Positions 2,474-7,284 of a DNA stretch of 27,678 nt are shown piece by piece. Numbering within the stretch: position 1 is the stretch's first letter; the number at the start of each line of letters is the position of its first letter. The position numbers were made by a program, and so were the translations under genes. The DNA comes from a virus. Below the pieces are notes generated by a model. It was not told where the DNA came from. It made no database searches and was given only the letters and a program-made list of their open reading frames with translations. The stretch covers positions 1 through 27,678 of the IMG/VR virus record IMGVR_UViG_3300041809_001829. One strand, written 5' to 3'.

Positions 2474-2534
2474 TCGCCCTGATGAGGCCGGATGGCTGCC
2501 GGCCGAAACGCTCCCTGTCACGGAGCGTAGGCGA
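2474..2534 (+). ncRNA. Hammerhead ribozyme, type I, copy 1
   Basis: Stem I TCGCC (2474-2478) / GGCGA (2530-2534). Core CTGATGA (2479-2485), fully canonical. Stem II GGCCGG (2486-2491) / CCGGCC (2499-2504) with loop ATGGCTG. GAAA at 2505-2508. Stem III ACGCTCC (2508-2514) / GGAGCGT (2522-2528). The cleavage-site nucleotide is A2529, so the predicted cut is 2529/2530 (GTA triplet). It lies wholly between the stop of the gene ending at 2471 and the start at 2560. It is the only copy with both the canonical CTGATGA and no inserted base, so it is the best one to test first. Confidence 0.9.
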
Positions 2535-2559
2535 AAGCTGCTCTAAGAAAGGAGAGCGT
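2530..2559 (+). promoter_or_regulatory. Post-cleavage leader with SD hairpin, copy 1
   Basis: The predicted new 5' end can fold GGC-GAAA-GCT (2530-2539). Then GCTCT (2540-2544) / AGAGC (2553-2557) closes loop AAGAAAGG (2545-2552). AAGGAG spans the loop and the 3' arm, 7 nt before ATG 2560. Confidence 0.75.
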
Positions 2560-2829
2560 ATGGCAAGGGTCAAGGATGTAAAGCGGCGCGTCGCGACTTT
2601 TTGGTATGAGGGCGGCGAAAAGCTGCAATTCGAGTTGCTGGCGATCTCGACGGAGTTCGATTTTCTGATCATCTCCGAGGGACCCGGACTGTCGGCCTAC
2701 CTATGGTGGGACGAACGGCGGGAGTGCTGGTCGCACGATGGACACAAGATCGTCAAGGTCACCGGGATTCCGGAGCTGGTGGAAGAACGGGACCTGGTGG
2801 GTGCAGGAAAGAAATCATCGCCCCGATGA
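2560..2829 (+). CDS. Hypothetical protein after hammerhead 1 (89 aa)
   Basis: Start MARVKDVKRRVATFWYEGG at 2560 is set by AAGGAG 7 nt upstream. An upstream in-frame ATG at 2440 would run through the ribozyme and is rejected. The protein is mixed alpha/beta with a Trp-rich middle (YLWWDERRECWSHDGHKIV). No family recognised. Its TGA stop (2827-2829) is at the same time T7-G8-A9 of the core of hammerhead copy 2, so a ribosome ending here would sit on the ribozyme. Confidence 0.75.
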   Translation: MARVKDVKRRVATFWYEGGEKLQFELLAISTEFDFLIISEGPGLSAYLWWDERRECWSHDGHKIVKVTGIPELVEERDLVGAGKKSSPR

Positions 2830-2883
2830 GGCCGTGCGGGCAGCCGGCCGAAACTCCCCGCAGGGATGCGGAGGAGTCGGCGA
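2818..2883 (+). ncRNA. Hammerhead ribozyme, type I, copy 2
   Basis: Stem I TCGCC (2818-2822) / GGCGA (2879-2883). Core CCGATGA (2823-2829), with C in place of the usual U4. Stem II GGCCG (2830-2834) / CGGCC (2845-2849), extended by GC/GC around loop GGGCA. GAAA 2850-2853. Stem III ACTCC (2853-2857) / GGAGT (2873-2877), extended by CCGC/GCGG past a bulged A2872. Cleavage nucleotide C2878 (GTC), predicted cut 2878/2879. The first 12 nt are still coding sequence of the upstream gene. Confidence 0.87.
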
Positions 2884-2917
2884 AAGCCCCCGTGGAAAGG
2901 ACGGGTTCACATACGTT
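2879..2917 (+). promoter_or_regulatory. Post-cleavage leader with SD hairpin, copy 2
   Basis: GGC-GAAA-GCC (2879-2888), then CCCGT (2889-2893) / ACGGG (2901-2905) with loop GGAAAGG (2894-2900). ATG at 2918 is 12 nt after the hairpin. The linear SD spacing of 17 nt is long unless folding or another contact shortens it. Confidence 0.7.
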
Positions 2918-3670
2918 ATGGCAAAGAAAGAAACGAAAACCGCTTCCGCGGCGCCCGTGGCCGCAAAGGTTGTCAACTACGAACTGGTCGGCGCGATGCA
3001 GCAGCGGATCAAGGACCAGGTAGTGGAGTTGTTGGCTTCGGGAGTGAAGCTTGCGGTCGAAGAGGGCAGCACGTTGGCGTCGGAGACGGCTCCGGGGCAC
3101 GGGCGGCTGGCTTTGGAGATCGCGCTCCCCACGGAGTTGATGGACAGGATCAACGAGGTGTTTTCCAAGGAAGCCGGGCAGCACGGACTCGCGCGGGCCT
3201 CGACGAAGATGTTGGGGCGGGTGACATTCGAATTCGCGACGGCGGAGAACGGCAAGGCCGCGGACCGCACGGCGATCGACTGGAACCGGCTGGCGGGTCA
3301 TGTGCCGGCGGACGACAACGATTACAACTTCGCGATGTTGCGCAAGGAGTGGTTGGGGCAGTCGTTCGTGTACGCGATGAACGAATTCGGCGATTACTGG
3401 TACACGATCGTCGGATTGAATCCGGACGCCAACAAGCCGGTCTGCGTCATCTGCAACGACAAGGCGGATAACGACGGGACGGTCTGGAAGCTGGAAGCGG
3501 AGCTGGTCGCCGAGCACGTCAAGAAGATGGCCGGCCGGAAGATCGGTCCGGAATTGACGGCGCGCAAGCCGGACAACTGCGTCATCGCGAAATGGGTGGA
3601 GCCGAAGAAGGCGGCCGCCGCGGCTGCCGCTCCCGCGCAGGCTCACACCGAAGAGTCGAAGGTCGCGTAG
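2918..3670 (+). CDS. Hypothetical phage protein (250 aa)
   Basis: Start MAKKETKTASAAPVAAK at 2918 follows the SD hairpin. The frame is open further upstream, but that part covers the ribozyme. A low-complexity basic/Ala N-terminus (1-20) leads into a helical region (about 25-60) and then a mixed domain with aromatic patches (NEFGDYWYTIVGLNPDANKP). The C-terminus is an Ala/Pro tail (KKAAAAAAAPAQ). Two cysteines (VCVIC) are present without a full zinc site. No known family. It could be a DNA-binding or host-takeover protein, judging only by place and flexible basic ends. Confidence 0.75.
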   Translation: MAKKETKTASAAPVAAKVVNYELVGAMQQRIKDQVVELLASGVKLAVEEGSTLASETAPGHGRLALEIALPTELMDRINEVFSKEAGQHGLARASTKMLGRVTFEFATAENGKAADRTAIDWNRLAGHVPADDNDYNFAMLRKEWLGQSFVYAMNEFGDYWYTIVGLNPDANKPVCVICNDKADNDGTVWKLEAELVAEHVKKMAGRKIGPELTARKPDNCVIAKWVEPKKAAAAAAAPAQAHTEESKVA

Positions 3671-3671
3671 T

Positions 3672-3738
3672 TCGCCCCGATGATGGCTGGATGGCATCCA
3701 GTCGAAACCTCCCCGTCGAGAGACGGTGAGGTCGGCGA
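3672..3738 (+). ncRNA. Hammerhead ribozyme, type I, copy 3
   Basis: Stem I TCGCC (3672-3676) / GGCGA (3734-3738). Core CCGATGA (3677-3683) with an extra T3684 before stem II. Stem II GGCTGGA (3685-3691) / TCCAGTC (3697-3703), loop TGGCA. GAAA 3704-3707. Stem III ACCTC (3707-3711) / GAGGT (3728-3732), extended by CCGTC/GACGG and capped by a GAGA tetraloop (3718-3721). Cleavage nucleotide C3733, predicted cut 3733/3734. It starts 1 nt after the upstream TAG. Confidence 0.85.
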
Positions 3739-3775
3739 AAGCCCCGCGTAGAAAGGCGCGGTCAGGAACAAGAAC
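3734..3775 (+). promoter_or_regulatory. Post-cleavage leader with SD hairpin, copy 3
   Basis: GGC-GAAA-GCC (3734-3743), CCGCG (3744-3748) / CGCGG (3757-3761), loop TAGAAAGG (3749-3756). A second SD-like AGGA (3764-3767) lies 8 nt before ATG 3776 and may be the one used. Confidence 0.7.
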
Positions 3776-3988
3776 ATGGCGAAGAAACAGTTTCGAGTAG
3801 TGCGGATGATGTTGCGGGCGATGGGCGTGCGGTTCAACGCGTACGCGATCGTCGGCGGATTCAGCCTGGCGGTCGAGAACGCGCCGGCGCGCGTGATCCG
3901 GGAGCTCCGGAAGAGCGCGTCGCGGGTGTGGGAGTACGATCGCAAGGGTTATCGTCACGGGACGCGGTTTCATTTCCTGGAGGCGTAA
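3776..3988 (+). CDS. Small basic hypothetical protein (70 aa)
   Basis: Starts at ATG 3776, 8 nt after AGGA. The product is very basic (MAKKQFRVVRMMLRAMGVRF, later RELRKSASRVWEYDRKGYR), with many Arg in helices, so nucleic-acid binding is plausible. No family recognised. It is followed after 2 nt by the gene at 3991, with no ribozyme between, so these two form one predicted processed bicistronic unit between hammerheads 3 and 4. Confidence 0.7.
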   Translation: MAKKQFRVVRMMLRAMGVRFNAYAIVGGFSLAVENAPARVIRELRKSASRVWEYDRKGYRHGTRFHFLEA

Positions 3989-3990
3989 CG

Positions 3991-4254
3991 ATGAAGGCAC
4001 AGTTGAGAGTGCTGCCGCACAGCGAGTTGCCCGGCGAGAGGGTGGTGGAAGTCCACTTCGCCGGGCAGTTGGTGTGCACGGTCGTGGGCGCAGACGGCCC
4101 GGGCGTGCGCATCATTTCGAAGTACCGTCCGCAGATCGACGTGATGGACGCCTTCATGGCTGCCACGATCTGGCCGATGTCGGAGCACCTGTACGGACAG
4201 AAAGCCCCCGCCGTGGGAGCGATCCAGGTCCTGTACAAGTTATCGTCCCGATGA
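3991..4254 (+). CDS. Hypothetical protein (87 aa)
   Basis: ATG 3991 has TGGAGG (3978-3983) 7 nt upstream, inside the end of the previous gene. This is a standard, unstructured ribosome binding site, unlike the ribozyme-led genes. The start has a beta-like pattern (LRVLPHSELPGERVVEVHF) followed by a probable helix (DVMDAFMAATIWPMSEHLY). Function unknown. Its stop TGA (4252-4254) forms the TGA of the core of hammerhead copy 4. Confidence 0.7.
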   Translation: MKAQLRVLPHSELPGERVVEVHFAGQLVCTVVGADGPGVRIISKYRPQIDVMDAFMAATIWPMSEHLYGQKAPAVGAIQVLYKLSSR

Positions 4255-4305
4255 TGGCCGGGCGGCTCCCGGTCGAAATTCCCGGCGCCGTCCGGGAATC
4301 GGCGA
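4243..4305 (+). ncRNA. Hammerhead ribozyme, type I, copy 4
   Basis: Stem I TCGTC (4243-4247) / GGCGA (4301-4305) with one G-U pair. Core CCGATGA (4248-4254) plus extra T4255. Stem II GGCCGGG (4256-4262) / CCCGGTC (4268-4274), loop CGGCT. GAAA 4275-4278. Stem III ATTCCCGG (4278-4285) / CCGGGAAT (4292-4299), eight perfect pairs. Cleavage nucleotide C4300, predicted cut 4300/4301. The TGA of the core is the stop codon of the gene at 3991. Confidence 0.87.
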
Positions 4306-4335
4306 AAGCCCCGGTGGAAAGGACCGGAAAACGAT
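4301..4335 (+). promoter_or_regulatory. Post-cleavage leader with SD hairpin, copy 4
   Basis: GGC-GAAA-GCC (4301-4310), CCGGT (4311-4315) / ACCGG (4323-4327), loop GGAAAGG (4316-4322). ATG 4336 is 8 nt after the hairpin. Confidence 0.75.
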
Positions 4336-4740
4336 ATGGCAAAAAGTATCGTGTGCGGCCTGAACGGCTGCACGCGAGTATTTCGCAACCAGTGGGGATT
4401 GAAGGTGCATCGTTCCAAGACGGCGCATCCGGAGCCGGCTTCTGCCAAAGTGCCGGTGGAGCCCGACCGGGCGCCGGTGCGCGAACCGGATCCGCCCAAG
4501 GACACGGACACCGTCGAGCAGTTGAAGCTGGTCTTGGGCTCGTTGATCGGCAAACGAACGTCGATCGAGTCGGAGATCCGGAAACTGCGGGCCGCGGAGA
4601 TCGAGCAGGTCCTGGTGGAGCAGGAAATCGCGGTGGTCGGCAAGGCCATCGAACAACTGCGGGAGGCGGCCAAATATACTACACAGTGTCAAGCCAGAAA
4701 GATCAACGCTGGAATAAAAGCGGTAGCTACACCGGCATAA
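4336..4740 (+). CDS. C2H2 zinc-finger, coiled-coil protein
   Basis: A 134-residue protein. Residues 7-31 fit a classical C2H2 finger: C7-x4-C12-x3-F16, a hydrophobic L22, H25-x5-H31, giving Cx4Cx12Hx5H. A Pro-rich linker (about 32-57) joins it to a heptad-like helix (about 59-110, EQLKLVLGSLIGKRTSIE and onward), probably a dimerising coiled coil. Classical single fingers of this form are common in eukaryotes and uncommon in phages. DNA or protein binding is likely, target unknown. It follows hammerhead 4, and the gene at 4686 overlaps its end. Confidence 0.75.
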   Translation: MAKSIVCGLNGCTRVFRNQWGLKVHRSKTAHPEPASAKVPVEPDRAPVREPDPPKDTDTVEQLKLVLGSLIGKRTSIESEIRKLRAAEIEQVLVEQEIAVVGKAIEQLREAAKYTTQCQARKINAGIKAVATPA

Positions 4741-4844
4741 TCTCGGCGGGTTATCCGCAGGAGGTGTTGGACTGGTTGGAGGCATGCGAGAAAAAGTTTG
4801 GGGATCGTCCGGATGATCTGACTTACAGCAGCATGAAGGATTGA
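4686..4844 (+). CDS. Small acidic protein, GTG start (52 aa)
   Basis: This frame overlaps the end of the zinc-finger gene by 55 nt and ends 1 nt before hammerhead 5. GTG at 4686 is the only sensible start. GGGAGG (4661-4666) is 19 nt upstream, so initiation may rely on coupling. The protein sequence is convincing (YPQEVLDWLEACEKKFG, then DRPDDLTYSSMKD), a compact helical domain. No family known. The start is the least certain part. Confidence 0.6.
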   Translation: MSSQKDQRWNKSGSYTGIISAGYPQEVLDWLEACEKKFGDRPDDLTYSSMKD

Positions 4845-4845
4845 A

Positions 4846-4899
4846 TCGTCCTGAAGAGGACCGGCGGCTCCGGTCCGAAACGTCGGGAGACGTCGGCGA
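4846..4899 (+). ncRNA. Hammerhead ribozyme, type I, copy 5 (minimal)
   Basis: Shortest copy, 54 nt. Stem I TCGTC (4846-4850) / GGCGA (4895-4899). Core CTGAAGA (4851-4857): U4 is kept and position 7, the most tolerant core position, is A. Stem II GGACCGG (4858-4864) / CCGGTCC (4870-4876), seven perfect pairs, loop CGGCT. GAAA 4877-4880. Stem III ACGTC (4880-4884) / GACGT (4889-4893) with a GGGA tetraloop. Cleavage nucleotide C4894, predicted cut 4894/4895. Confidence 0.9.
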
Positions 4900-4929
4900 A
4901 AGCCTCGCGCGGAAAGGGCGCGAACAAAC
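4895..4929 (+). promoter_or_regulatory. Post-cleavage leader with SD hairpin, copy 5
   Basis: GGC-GAAA-GCC (4895-4904), TCGCGC (4905-4910) / GCGCGA (4918-4923), loop GGAAAGG (4911-4917). ATG 4930 is 6 nt later. Confidence 0.75.
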
Positions 4930-5715
4930 ATGGCGAAGATGCATGGAGATGAAACGACAGTGAAGGCCCTGCCGGACTGCGACTTCTGTCTTGCGGAAAA
5001 GAAGCGGAAGAAGGAGAAGGCCCGTTACGACGGGCGTACCCGGCAGGGGCCTTGGGCGAATATGTGCGTGGCGCATTTCAAGGCGCACGGAATCGGCGTG
5101 GGCGTGGGGAAGGGGCAGCGATTGTGGCTCCCCTCCGAAAAGCACGCGCCCGGCGAGGTTCCGATCGTCGAGCTGCCACCGCATTCCGCGGCGCCTCAGG
5201 AAGCACTGGACCAGTGTTCGGTGTGCGGGCTACCCTGGTTCGTCCGGGTGCTCGAATATATCGCGGGGAAGTCTTACTGCCCCAAATGCCTGCGCGATTG
5301 CTTTCCGCTGCGGAAAGACGGTCCTTACACGTTCGGCGATATCGTGGCGGTCACTTATCCGGCCAGCTGCGAGAACCCGGGCGTGTACATCGGCCGCGTC
5401 CTGACCATTCCCGAACAGAACGTGCTCGAGATCCGCTTCGAATACGACGAGGCGTTCTGCGAGGACGTGCACCTGGCGATGGATGGTTTCGGCGGCTGGT
5501 GGGATCTGGACAACCAGGTCCCGAGTCCCGAGCAGGTGGAGCGCTTGGGAAAGGATGCGTGCATCCGCGTTCGGTTCGGGGTCGAGGCGGAAGCCATCGG
5601 CTACGAAAAACTGCGCCGGGCCCGGATCGGGTACCGGGACGAAGGCAGGCCCACGGAGTCGCAGTTGCGGCCGTGGGGAGGACAACCGAAATCGACCCAA
5701 GGCAATTTGTTCTGA
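4930..5715 (+). CDS. Double zinc-binding phage protein (261 aa)
   Basis: Residues 17-49 hold CDFC (17-20), then YDGRTRQGPWANMCVAHF with C46 and H49. This fits, from memory, a small zinc-binding protein common in actinobacteriophages (CDFC ... YDG.T..GPWA.MC..H, then a Gly-rich GxGxGxGQRL). A second four-Cys site follows: CSVC (96-99) and CPKC (117-120). The C-terminal half (130-261) is a separate beta-rich acidic domain of unknown type. It is probably a fusion of a phage zinc domain with a second zinc ribbon; the function is not known. It follows hammerhead 5. Confidence 0.75.
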   Translation: MAKMHGDETTVKALPDCDFCLAEKKRKKEKARYDGRTRQGPWANMCVAHFKAHGIGVGVGKGQRLWLPSEKHAPGEVPIVELPPHSAAPQEALDQCSVCGLPWFVRVLEYIAGKSYCPKCLRDCFPLRKDGPYTFGDIVAVTYPASCENPGVYIGRVLTIPEQNVLEIRFEYDEAFCEDVHLAMDGFGGWWDLDNQVPSPEQVERLGKDACIRVRFGVEAEAIGYEKLRRARIGYRDEGRPTESQLRPWGGQPKSTQGNLF

Positions 5716-5866
5716 AGGAGGACGCGGCGCAACCGCGTCCCGGTATCCGATGCAGGGAGCCCCAAGAGCACCGGTCCACTACACGTGGAACGGGAGTGGA
5801 GATCCCGGCGTGGGGGGGACGGATCGGATACCCGGAGGCGGTTGCGATACGTAGGCTACCGTCTGC
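5716..5866 (+). ncRNA. Structured leader RNA of unknown class, replaces a hammerhead
   Basis: Located where the other genes of this operon have a hammerhead. Hairpin GGACGCGG (5720-5727) / CCGCGTCC (5733-5740), loop CGCAA. Then GGTATCCG (5742-5749) pairs with CGGATACC (5825-5832). Inside this, an arm can form from CCCC (5760-5763) with the G-run at 5812-5818, CCGG (5771-5774) with CCGG, and TCCACT/AGTGGA. The 5' side reads CTGAAGGAGGAC, like core plus stem II of copy 5, but no GAAA follows stem II. A 34-codon frame (ATG 5750 to TAG 5854) crosses it; its codon choice is unlike the neighbours, so RNA is the better reading. It could be a rearranged hammerhead, another self-cleaving RNA or a regulatory leader. 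Confidence 0.5.
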
Positions 5867-5892
5867 TGCGGTGAAAGGACCGCAAGTGAACA
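5867..5892 (+). promoter_or_regulatory. SD hairpin, copy 7 (without hammerhead)
   Basis: TGCGGT (5867-5872) / ACCGCA (5879-5884) closes loop GAAAGG (5873-5878), 8 nt before ATG 5893. It has the same design as the six ribozyme-linked hairpins, with a different stem sequence. Confidence 0.75.
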
Positions 5893-6702
5893 ATGGCAAA
5901 AAAGAAAACCCAAGGTGCGCTCGCCGAGAAGCTGTCGGCCGCCATCGAGGGCAAGAAGGTCATCAAAGCGACGGATACGACACCGCCTCCCGACGTCCAG
6001 GCAGCGCTGATCACGCTGAAGGGTCTGAAGGCGGGCGACCTGATTACGGTCGAATACGCTCAGGCTCCCGGCCGCGTGCCGGGGATCTATGGCGCGGAAG
6101 TGGTGTCCGTTTCCAGGGACGGCAAGGATGCTTCGATCAAGTTCCTGTTCGCCAACAAGCCGCCGCGCGCCGGCGCGCTCAAGGTGAAGAAGTTCGGGAA
6201 CAACGACGATCGGGTCATCGACGCCGGCGACGAGCGCGAGGTCCAGGTGAGGAGGCCCAATCGAGAGCAACGCGATCAGTTGGAAGCCATCCGCACGAGC
6301 CAGGGCCAGCGCTCTCCCGACATGGCGCCGCTCAAGTTGAACCAGGTGGCGGCGTTCGTGTATCCCAAGGCGCCGGAAGGCGCGGCTTGGGTGCCGGGAG
6401 TTTCGATAGGGATCGTCACCAAGGCGGTGAATTGGGCGTTCGAGGTCACGTTCTATTACGCGGACGTGGAGGAGGGCGACCAGCCGATGGAAACGATTCC
6501 GATGAACCGCGGCGACGATGGCGAATACGTCGACGTGAAGTACGGGTGCAGGCTGGCGATGGTTCGCAAACCAACAGCCGGCGAGGTCGCGGCATTCGAA
6601 GCGGCCCGCAAGGACGTGCTCTCGAAGAGGGCCATCCCAAACGCCCCGAAACCCGCGGGTAGAGTTTCTTCCTCCGCATCGGCCGATGAAGCGGTAGCTT
6701 AG
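5893..6702 (+). CDS. Hypothetical protein (269 aa)
   Basis: Starts MAKKKTQGALAEKLSAAIEG, sharing the MAK start of its ribozyme-led neighbours. After a basic N-terminus it has two beta-rich segments of similar character: about 42-90 (GLKAGDLITVEYAQAPGR ... VVSVSRDGKDASIKFLF) and about 150-225 (LNQVAAFVYPKAPEGAAWVP ... WAFEVTFYYADVEEGD). Each looks like an SH3-like or other small barrel, so it may be a two-domain duplication. The C-terminus is a flexible Ser/Ala/Pro tail. No family recognised. A strong terminator follows 23 nt after the stop. Confidence 0.75.
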   Translation: MAKKKTQGALAEKLSAAIEGKKVIKATDTTPPPDVQAALITLKGLKAGDLITVEYAQAPGRVPGIYGAEVVSVSRDGKDASIKFLFANKPPRAGALKVKKFGNNDDRVIDAGDEREVQVRRPNREQRDQLEAIRTSQGQRSPDMAPLKLNQVAAFVYPKAPEGAAWVPGVSIGIVTKAVNWAFEVTFYYADVEEGDQPMETIPMNRGDDGEYVDVKYGCRLAMVRKPTAGEVAAFEAARKDVLSKRAIPNAPKPAGRVSSSASADEAVA

Positions 6703-6725
6703 TCAGCCCTGCGGCTTTCGCCAAA

Positions 6726-6763
6726 CCTGGCTGGAGACGCCATGCTCCAGCCAGGATTTTTTT
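6726..6763 (+). terminator. Rho-independent terminator
   Basis: CCTGGCTGGAG (6726-6736) pairs perfectly with CTCCAGCCAGG (6745-6755), 11 bp with an 8-nt loop, then A and seven Ts (6757-6763). The last T is also the first base of stem I of hammerhead 6, so only read-through RNA would contain that ribozyme. Confidence 0.9.
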
Positions 6764-6839
6764 CGCCCCGATGAGGACCTGGCGGCCCCGGTCCGAAATT
6801 CAGTACCCGGTCGGAAATGTGAGACCCCTGAATCGGCGA
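6763..6839 (+). ncRNA. Hammerhead ribozyme, type I, copy 6
   Basis: Stem I TCGCC (6763-6767) / GGCGA (6835-6839), extendable by T-A pairs from the terminator T-run. Core CCGATGA (6768-6774). Stem II GGACC (6775-6779) / GGTCC (6790-6794) plus two inner G-C pairs around loop CGGC. GAAA 6795-6798. Stem III ATTCAG (6798-6803) / CTGAAT (6828-6833) with a 24-nt insert, which contains a partial copy of the stem II end (CCCGGTCGGAAAT). Cleavage nucleotide C6834, predicted cut 6834/6835. Confidence 0.82.
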
Positions 6840-6867
6840 AAGCTACTCCCCCGTTTAGAAAGAGACT
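6835..6867 (+). promoter_or_regulatory. Post-cleavage leader with weak SD hairpin, copy 6
   Basis: GGC-GAAA-GCT (6835-6844), then a C-rich spacer and GTTT (6853-6856) / AGAC (6863-6866) with loop AGAAAG. ATG 6868 follows after 1 nt. The stem is the weakest of the set and the SD lacks the final GG. Confidence 0.5.
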
Positions 6868-7284
6868 ATGACTGTTCAGACGAAGAAGAAACAGCCGGAT
6901 ATGGATGAACCCATCCGTGTTCGAGGAGTTGGAGCGAAAGGAGTGAAGTTCGGATCCGTGGAGTATCAGGAGCTGGCCCGGCATCTGATCCTGGAAGCGC
7001 ACGGCGCCTATGGCAGCCGGTCGTTTTTCTGGATCAACCAGGAGCCGTACGTGCTCGAAGAGGAGTTCGACTGGTTCGTGGCAGGGCGCGCCTTCGGTTG
7101 CGTGAAAAGGTCGGAGTTCGGCGCAATTGGCGACTGGACCGACATGCAACTCGGATGGCTGGAGGATTTTTACCTGGTGTACGAGGAGTATCAGGTCGCG
7201 CGGCCGCTGTTGCTCGACGGGGGCGCGATCATGACCAGGGAGCGAGTAGTCCATACGATGAATTTGCTGAAGAGGAGAATTTGA
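6868..7284 (+). CDS. Hypothetical protein (138 aa)
   Basis: Starts MTVQTKKKQPDMDEPIRV at 6868, directly after the last ribozyme leader. It is an aromatic-rich globular protein (SRSFFWINQEPYVLEEEFDW; LGWLEDFYLVYEEYQ), probably all-alpha, ending in a basic tail (LLKRRI). No family recognised. From the next gene on, ordinary Shine-Dalgarno sites replace the ribozyme leaders. Confidence 0.75.
   Translation: MTVQTKKKQPDMDEPIRVRGVGAKGVKFGSVEYQELARHLILEAHGAYGSRSFFWINQEPYVLEEEFDWFVAGRAFGCVKRSEFGAIGDWTDMQLGWLEDFYLVYEEYQVARPLLLDGGAIMTRERVVHTMNLLKRRI

Follow-up and report, generated by a model that had tools for sequence, protein, structure and literature searches.

The window analysed here, a linear virus record of environmental DNA from IMG/VR (IMGVR_UViG_3300041809_001829; 27,678 bases), derives from a tailed phage, with terminase, portal and major head protein recognisable among its proteins, and carries an operon in which predicted type I hammerhead ribozymes (HHR1 to HHR6) stand at six gene junctions, each followed by a composite leader that presents the Shine-Dalgarno (SD) sequence in the loop of a hairpin. 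We consider it likely, from the sequence, that this operon is transcribed as one long RNA that cuts itself at most junctions into mRNAs with hairpin ends. Bacterial and phage hammerheads have been on record since 2011, and we know of no proven job for them; with six copies in the window and ten in a related phage, all tied to a leader, the idea that they process mRNA becomes directly testable. If it is true, ribozymes can replace host RNases in the making of phage mRNA.

All six elements lie on the plus strand and share one order of parts: stem I (TCGYC/GGCGA), the core C(T/C)GA(T/A)GA, stem II, GAA, stem III, the cleavage-site nucleotide H17, and stem I again. Three helices are present throughout, with both ends of the element in stem I; stem III opens with the pair A15.1-U16.1 in every copy, and H17 is never G (C in five copies, A in one). 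HHR1 (2474-2534; core CTGATGA, H17 an A) has its predicted cut at 2529/2530 and follows the upstream stop codon, TGA, at 2469-2471. HHR2 (2818-2883; predicted cut 2878/2879) and HHR4 (4243-4305; predicted cut 4300/4301) both have the U4C core CCGATGA and hold the upstream stop within that core (TGA at 2827-2829 and at 4252-4254, respectively). HHR3 (3671-3739; predicted cut 3733/3734; CCGATGA, U4C) abuts the TAG at 3668-3670 and has a stem I of 6 bp, TTCGCC/GGCGAA; HHR5 (4846-4899; predicted cut 4894/4895), with core CTGAAGA, follows the TGA at 4842-4844; and HHR6 (6763-6839; predicted cut 6834/6835; CCGATGA, U4C) has an intrinsic terminator (6726-6762, plus strand) directly on its 5' side. 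Wherever the upstream gene is clear, its stop ends between 3 nucleotides (nt) before the ribozyme and 11 nt inside it, and for every upstream stop identified, the predicted cut lies on its 3' side. The next start lies 29-42 nt 3' of the cut, apart from a single value of 22 nt that belongs to an ATG inside an SD hairpin, the likely true start being at 2010. This anatomy supports the prediction of the elements as type I hammerheads.

With a strict script descriptor, four of the six copies were recognised and 200 dinucleotide-shuffled versions of the window gave no match; a single additional stem II nucleotide keeps copies 3 and 4 from fitting it. A home-built covariance model (R1), made from 16 aligned copies that include those of the window, recovers all six (E-values 7e-15 to 3e-11, to be read with this training in mind), and six copies of the relative that were not in its training set (L013:342, 1036, 2336 and 2823; L079:113 and 2637) score 50-74 bits with it. 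Six hammerheads at these places had been proposed in a preliminary description of the sequence, and both the anatomy and the model bear this out. Over 33 copies, in an alignment that leans to the structure of R1, 97.1% of pair cells are paired as against 76.1% in shuffles, and the covariation score is 0.593, compared with 0.159 for shuffles, and slid structures do not exceed 0.142. Both sides change, with pairing kept, in nine of the 11 pairs of stems II and III, which agrees with the earlier observation that these stems differ among copies yet stay paired; stem I hardly varies and so gives no covariation evidence. Unconstrained folding of the cassettes returns the three-way hammerhead for copies 1, 2, 3 and 6.

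Rfam searches at gathering and permissive thresholds, over the window and its single junctions, returned no ribozyme, and RF00163 had no real match over whole records, its gathering score not being reached. The preliminary description had proposed a search with the Rfam hammerhead models and counted a lack of hits as evidence against itself; taken literally, the outcome goes against it. A match to RF00163 is, however, not a defining feature of the hammerhead fold, and the Rfam hammerhead models also miss copies with the canonical core (CTGATGA) in other viral contigs (L005, L009 and L020), so that this null result says little. Current Rfam hammerhead models miss sets of this type.

Each predicted cut opens onto a leader of two hairpins, on the plus strand. 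Leader 1 (2530-2557) comprises the hairpin GGCGAAAGCT at 2530-2539 and the SD hairpin GCTCT-aagaaagg-AGAGC at 2540-2557, ahead of the ATG at 2560. The next four begin with the hairpin GGCGAAAGCC and continue with the SD hairpins CCCGT-ggaaagg-ACGGG (leader 2, 2879-2905; ATG 2918), CCGCGT-agaaag-GCGCGG (leader 3, 3734-3761; ATG 3776), CCGGT-ggaaagg-ACCGG (leader 4, 4301-4327; ATG 4336) and TCGCGC-ggaaagg-GCGCGA (leader 5, 4895-4923; ATG 4930), while leader 6 (6835-6866; ATG 6868) has the hairpin GGCGAAAGCT, 8 nt, and the SD hairpin GTTT-agaaag-AGAC. The earlier claim that each hammerhead is joined to the same translation leader thus held at all six junctions, with the SD hairpin of copy 6 being weak. 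Across window and relative, an SD-in-loop hairpin of four to six pairs, its loop holding GAAAG or GGAAAGG, lies 3' of GGCGAAAGCY in 16 of 16 copies and without a gap in 15 of them. Its arms are paired at 79 of 80 positions, against a mean of 42.5 and a maximum of 64 in 10,000 trials in which arms were re-paired among copies. For most copies the predicted fold of the 3' product is (((....)))(((((.......))))), because of which GGCGAAAGCY seems to serve twice, as a strand of stem I and then as a 5' hairpin. A loop II triplet RGC can form three pairs with the leader GCY in 32 of 35 scorable copies (36 listed), most triplets being invariant: AGC occurs in loop II only with GCT (4/4), GGC occurs with GCC or GCT, and 21 of the 36 copies have the invariant combination GGC/GCC.

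The relative, a phage with a major capsid protein 94% identical to that of the window (records 3300036909_000535, G001, and 3300046698_000540, G002), carries, within the first 7.1 kb, ten hammerhead cassettes at successive junctions (L013 and L079); U4C is present in four of the ten. Orthologues of genes 3776, 4930, 5893 and 6868 occur in it at 41-59% identity, and one of gene 2918 was not detected there by tblastn. Its stem II and III sequences are unrelated to those of the window, even ahead of the gene 3776 orthologue. Pattern searches yielded one to three copies each in contigs L002, L005, L006, L009, L011, L016, L019-L022, L024 and L025, and further viral contigs with single to triple copies are L029, L030, L035, L037, L038 and L274. 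In the low-GC phage L024, which has three hammerheads, the 3' products begin with the hairpins GGC-AATAT-GCC, GGC-GAAA-GCC or GGCG...CGCC, with loops of AATAT, GAAA and about 10 bases; for two of the three copies this pairing of the 5' end is independent of the search pattern. One of these contigs, L005, also has a partial match to the pistol ribozyme at 6484-6530 on the minus strand, the same strand as its hammerhead (27.8 bits; cut-off 34.5).

Ribozymes of another class occur at neighbouring junctions in some of these phages. L020/L038, which represent one phage, have hammerheads at two junctions and type-P5 twisters (RF02684) at the next two (E-values 1e-8 and 2e-7), and L011 has one hammerhead and one type-P5 twister at adjacent junctions, each directly after a TAA stop; the twister matches in these phages have E-values of 7e-9 to 2e-7 and keep the order stop, ribozyme, SD, ATG that the hammerheads have. 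G016 carries one ribozyme of each kind about 16 kb apart, and no type-P5 twister was found in the window or the relative. That twister and hammerhead stand in one role in unrelated phages points to cleavage as the selected trait. Self-cleaving ribozymes have been reported to cluster with one another and in the vicinity of Mu-like phage genes (PMC10085705). Searches of a wider kind added little: a pattern scan of GTDB gave at least 119 stretches, the 80 of them that were searched with R1 (L084-L163) held no strong hammerhead copy, loci there being almost all chance, and GTDB genome loci in a 633-kb R1 search gave only two weak matches (E-values 0.004 and 0.008). The descriptor script, over all loci, returned four chance-like matches lacking GGCGA, and the leader-plus-SD pattern, sought in viral contigs, found cassettes only in the known relative.

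From this layout we infer how the operon may work. Each cassette would run from the stop of one gene through a type I hammerhead and a leader to the start of the next. Cleavage would leave the reading frame of the upstream mRNA whole, with hairpins II and III and one unpaired nucleotide at its 3' end, and would give the downstream mRNA a 5'-OH end. In the uncut RNA, GGCGA would supply stem I with its 3' strand, and pairing of GCY with RGC in loop II may occur; after the cut, the same ten bases could refold as a 5'-terminal hairpin, GGC-GAAA-GCY, abutting the hairpin with SD in its loop, and as a result of this refolding the cut should be hard to reverse. 5'-OH ends can protect mRNA, and together with the hairpin ends they should slow mRNA decay and uncouple the translation of neighbouring genes. 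The preliminary description had predicted processing into units of mostly one gene each, with genes 3776 and 3991 staying together, and the sequence evidence favours it.

Several observations weigh against this reading. A hammerhead is absent before gene 5893, and junctions with overlapping genes further downstream also lack one, so that the proposal that hammerheads separate consecutive genes stands for six junctions and fails for that before gene 5893. Copies 1 and 5 match the core consensus exactly, with stem II beginning directly after A9; copies 2, 3, 4 and 6 combine U4C in an otherwise consensus core with a single added nucleotide at the 5' side of stem II, and cleavage may as a result be slow or partial. 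In passages of Perreault et al. (2011; PMC3088659), U4C is said to lower activity in vitro considerably, and a viroid bearing it to stay infectious. When copies 4 and 5 fold freely, structures that lack stem I are favoured by about 3 kcal/mol, which implies possible competition between the 5' hairpin and the ribozyme. The SD hairpin of leader 6 is the weak member of its set, and SD-in-loop hairpins were not seen beyond the window and the relative. The constancy of GGCGAAAGC across phages is in part imposed, since GGCGAAAGC was in most search patterns, and the flanks of R1 favour it too. The pairing between loop II and leader rests on few variable cases and is suggestive, not strong.

At the junction without a hammerhead, a structured RNA (5716-5865, plus strand; fold z -4.4) takes the place of the ribozyme before gene 5893, and is followed by an SD hairpin, GCGGT-GAAAGG-ACCGC (5868-5883, plus strand), that precedes the ATG at 5893 and resembles the SD hairpins downstream of the hammerheads. 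The RNA has a long stem and an alternative hairpin, GACGCGG-CGCAA-CCGCGTC. The homologous junction of the relative (L079:1549-1680) is structured too (z -4.05) and has little internal sequence in common with it; comparison of the RNA at 5716-5892 with its counterpart, two sequences only, gives a few compensatory changes. Readings of this RNA as an HDV-like, pistol or twister ribozyme did not fit, by eye or by Rfam, and a search for it elsewhere gave one extra match, inside an apparent coding sequence and taken as chance. Perhaps the element at 5716-5865 is another ribozyme or a regulator. A wider model, which we regard as doubtful, would have every junction carry a self-cleaving RNA, of whatever class, so that the whole operon yields separate mRNAs with paired ends that open with the re-used stem I-strand hairpin and the SD-in-loop hairpin; the RNA at 5716-5892 would then be a self-cleaving ribozyme of an undescribed class. 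At the last cassette, the order of terminator and then hammerhead is found in the relative as well (L079:2605-2640). Just before the terminator lies GGCTTTCGCC (6713-6722), which matches the hammerhead leader GGCGAAAGCC exactly in reverse complement, and AGCTTTCGCC occupies the same place in the relative (L079); pairing of GGCTTTCGCC with a leader, in cis or in trans, is conceivable.

The ribozymes might be slow or conditional switches, the uncut polycistronic RNA being, on account of U4C and the competing 5' hairpin, the normal product and some junctions being cut on a signal such as Mg2+, a ligand, a ribosome terminating atop stem I, or the antisense-like GGCTTTCGCC. We judge this unlikely: the reduced in vitro activity that goes with U4C in four of the six copies would suit it, as would stops that abut or overlap the ribozyme, so that a terminating ribosome would cover it, the closeness of the free energies of precursor and product, and the exact complementarity of GGCTTTCGCC to the leader, matched by AGCTTTCGCC in the relative; the consensus cores of copies 1 and 5 argue the other way, as does the free variation of stems II and III, with no aptamer-like domain conserved among the copies. 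Self-cleavage can also reduce the level of an mRNA, as in glmS-type control, and cuts between genes might trigger decay or switch off parts of the message, with a protective 5' end lost and new ends exposed. Here, however, the cuts would leave the reading frames intact and put hairpins at the new 3' end, the predicted folds give a paired 5' end and an SD hairpin, and the similarly built engineered insulator RiboJ raises both mRNA and protein, which together make such a destructive role very improbable.

The fixed ends TCGYC...GGCGAAAGCY...GAAAGG, common to copies within one genome, and the differing gene content between cassettes in the two phages, some orthologous genes notwithstanding, are what would be expected of modules that act mainly at the level of DNA, as spreading repeats or as recombination joints for gene swaps, with ribozyme activity secondary or decaying. 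Yet stems II and III and the SD arms have diverged beyond similarity and are still paired, which needs selection on RNA, and the twisters at neighbouring junctions in other phages have no sequence in common with the hammerheads; we accordingly attach very little credence to this explanation. That the elements are chance or non-ribozyme hairpins, inverted repeats that merely look like hammerheads, would accord with the lack of an Rfam match, but the same models pass over canonical-core copies, and the empty shuffles, the covariance model, the pair statistics and the recurrence in unrelated phages leave this a negligible probability. Self-processing of one long transcript at most junctions is the reading that we prefer.

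The genes separated by the ribozymes, all on the plus strand, lie at 2560-2829, 2918-3670, 3776-3988 together with 3991-4254, 4336-4740, 4930-5715, 5893-6702 and 6868-7284, and a candidate small open reading frame on the same strand, after gene 4336-4740, ends at 4844. Searches of Pfam and PHROGs gave no name for any operon gene, and the closest isolate relatives of the phage are remote, its portal and terminase being about 32% identical to those of Streptomyces phages such as GiJojo and BRock. Gene 4930-5715 has remote relatives in Arthrobacter and Streptomyces phages (phrog_23287), and a second, weaker tblastn match to it in the relative phage suggests a paralogue; no hammerhead was found near the distant relatives of this gene in isolate phages. 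Upstream of the operon, 1367-1395 holds a promoter-like TTTACA-17-TATACT (10/12 matches), the count of such sites in the region being at chance level. The leader region upstream of the operon (1861-2043) combines a terminator (2013-2035, with a T run) and a long inverted repeat in an attenuator-like arrangement, with a weak match to Phe_leader (E-value 0.15).

Among known systems, the early mRNA of T7 is alike in purpose: structured intergenic sites cut by RNase III turn a polycistronic transcript into stable, hairpin-ended mRNAs, but T7 needs a host protein for this, whereas here the RNA would cut itself. Artificial operons with ribozymes between their genes, for polycistronic co-expression, were reportedly engineered by Liu et al. 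in 2022, as the title of that work indicates. The type-P5 twisters of L020/L038 and L011 share their contigs with hammerheads and, like them, sit after a stop codon and ahead of the SD, but their fold is unrelated. The preliminary description called the set new, a claim that stands in part. Clusters of prophage hammerheads that flank genes, in Agrobacterium tumefaciens, Azorhizobium caulinodans and Clostridium scindens, and the proposal that they process transcripts into operon- or gene-length mRNAs, appear in the passages of Perreault et al. (2011; PMC3088659), with cleavage in vitro for three clustered arrangements and in Escherichia coli for one, that of A. tumefaciens. Those clusters share with the present set the flanking of single phage genes or small blocks by several hammerheads. 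The arrangements tested were small, as in the A. tumefaciens triple, whereas the window has six copies and the relative ten at successive junctions, many with U4C, and a composite leader common to all copies, as found here, was not met in those passages; what is new is how many copies there are, how regularly they occur, at nearly one per junction, and the composite leader. We found no description of phage operons with more hammerheads in the open-access literature, and a similar set may exist in print.

Another parallel, in construction, is RiboJ, an engineered hammerhead from sTRSV joined to a 23-nt hairpin, with which mRNA rises about 2-fold and protein 2- to 10-fold, the proposed reasons being the terminal hairpin and an exposed ribosome binding site (RBS) (PMC6206723, PMC8794103); this gain in expression makes a benefit of the phage cassettes plausible. 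Both have a hammerhead in the 5' untranslated region, and the mRNA begins, or in the phage would begin, in a hairpin after the cut; exposure of the RBS is attributed to the downstream hairpin. The role of RiboJ is to insulate a single gene from the promoter, whereas the phage cassettes are natural and lie between genes, have the SD inside the hairpin loop, and can form their first hairpin from the freed strand of stem I. The RiboJ-type order of a hammerhead and then an RBS-presenting hairpin recurs in all 16 copies from the two phages, with a weak hairpin in copy 6, and by this analogy the phage cassette would work, in layout, like a natural counterpart of the engineered insulator. If that is true, an insulator of the RiboJ type arose in nature before it was engineered.

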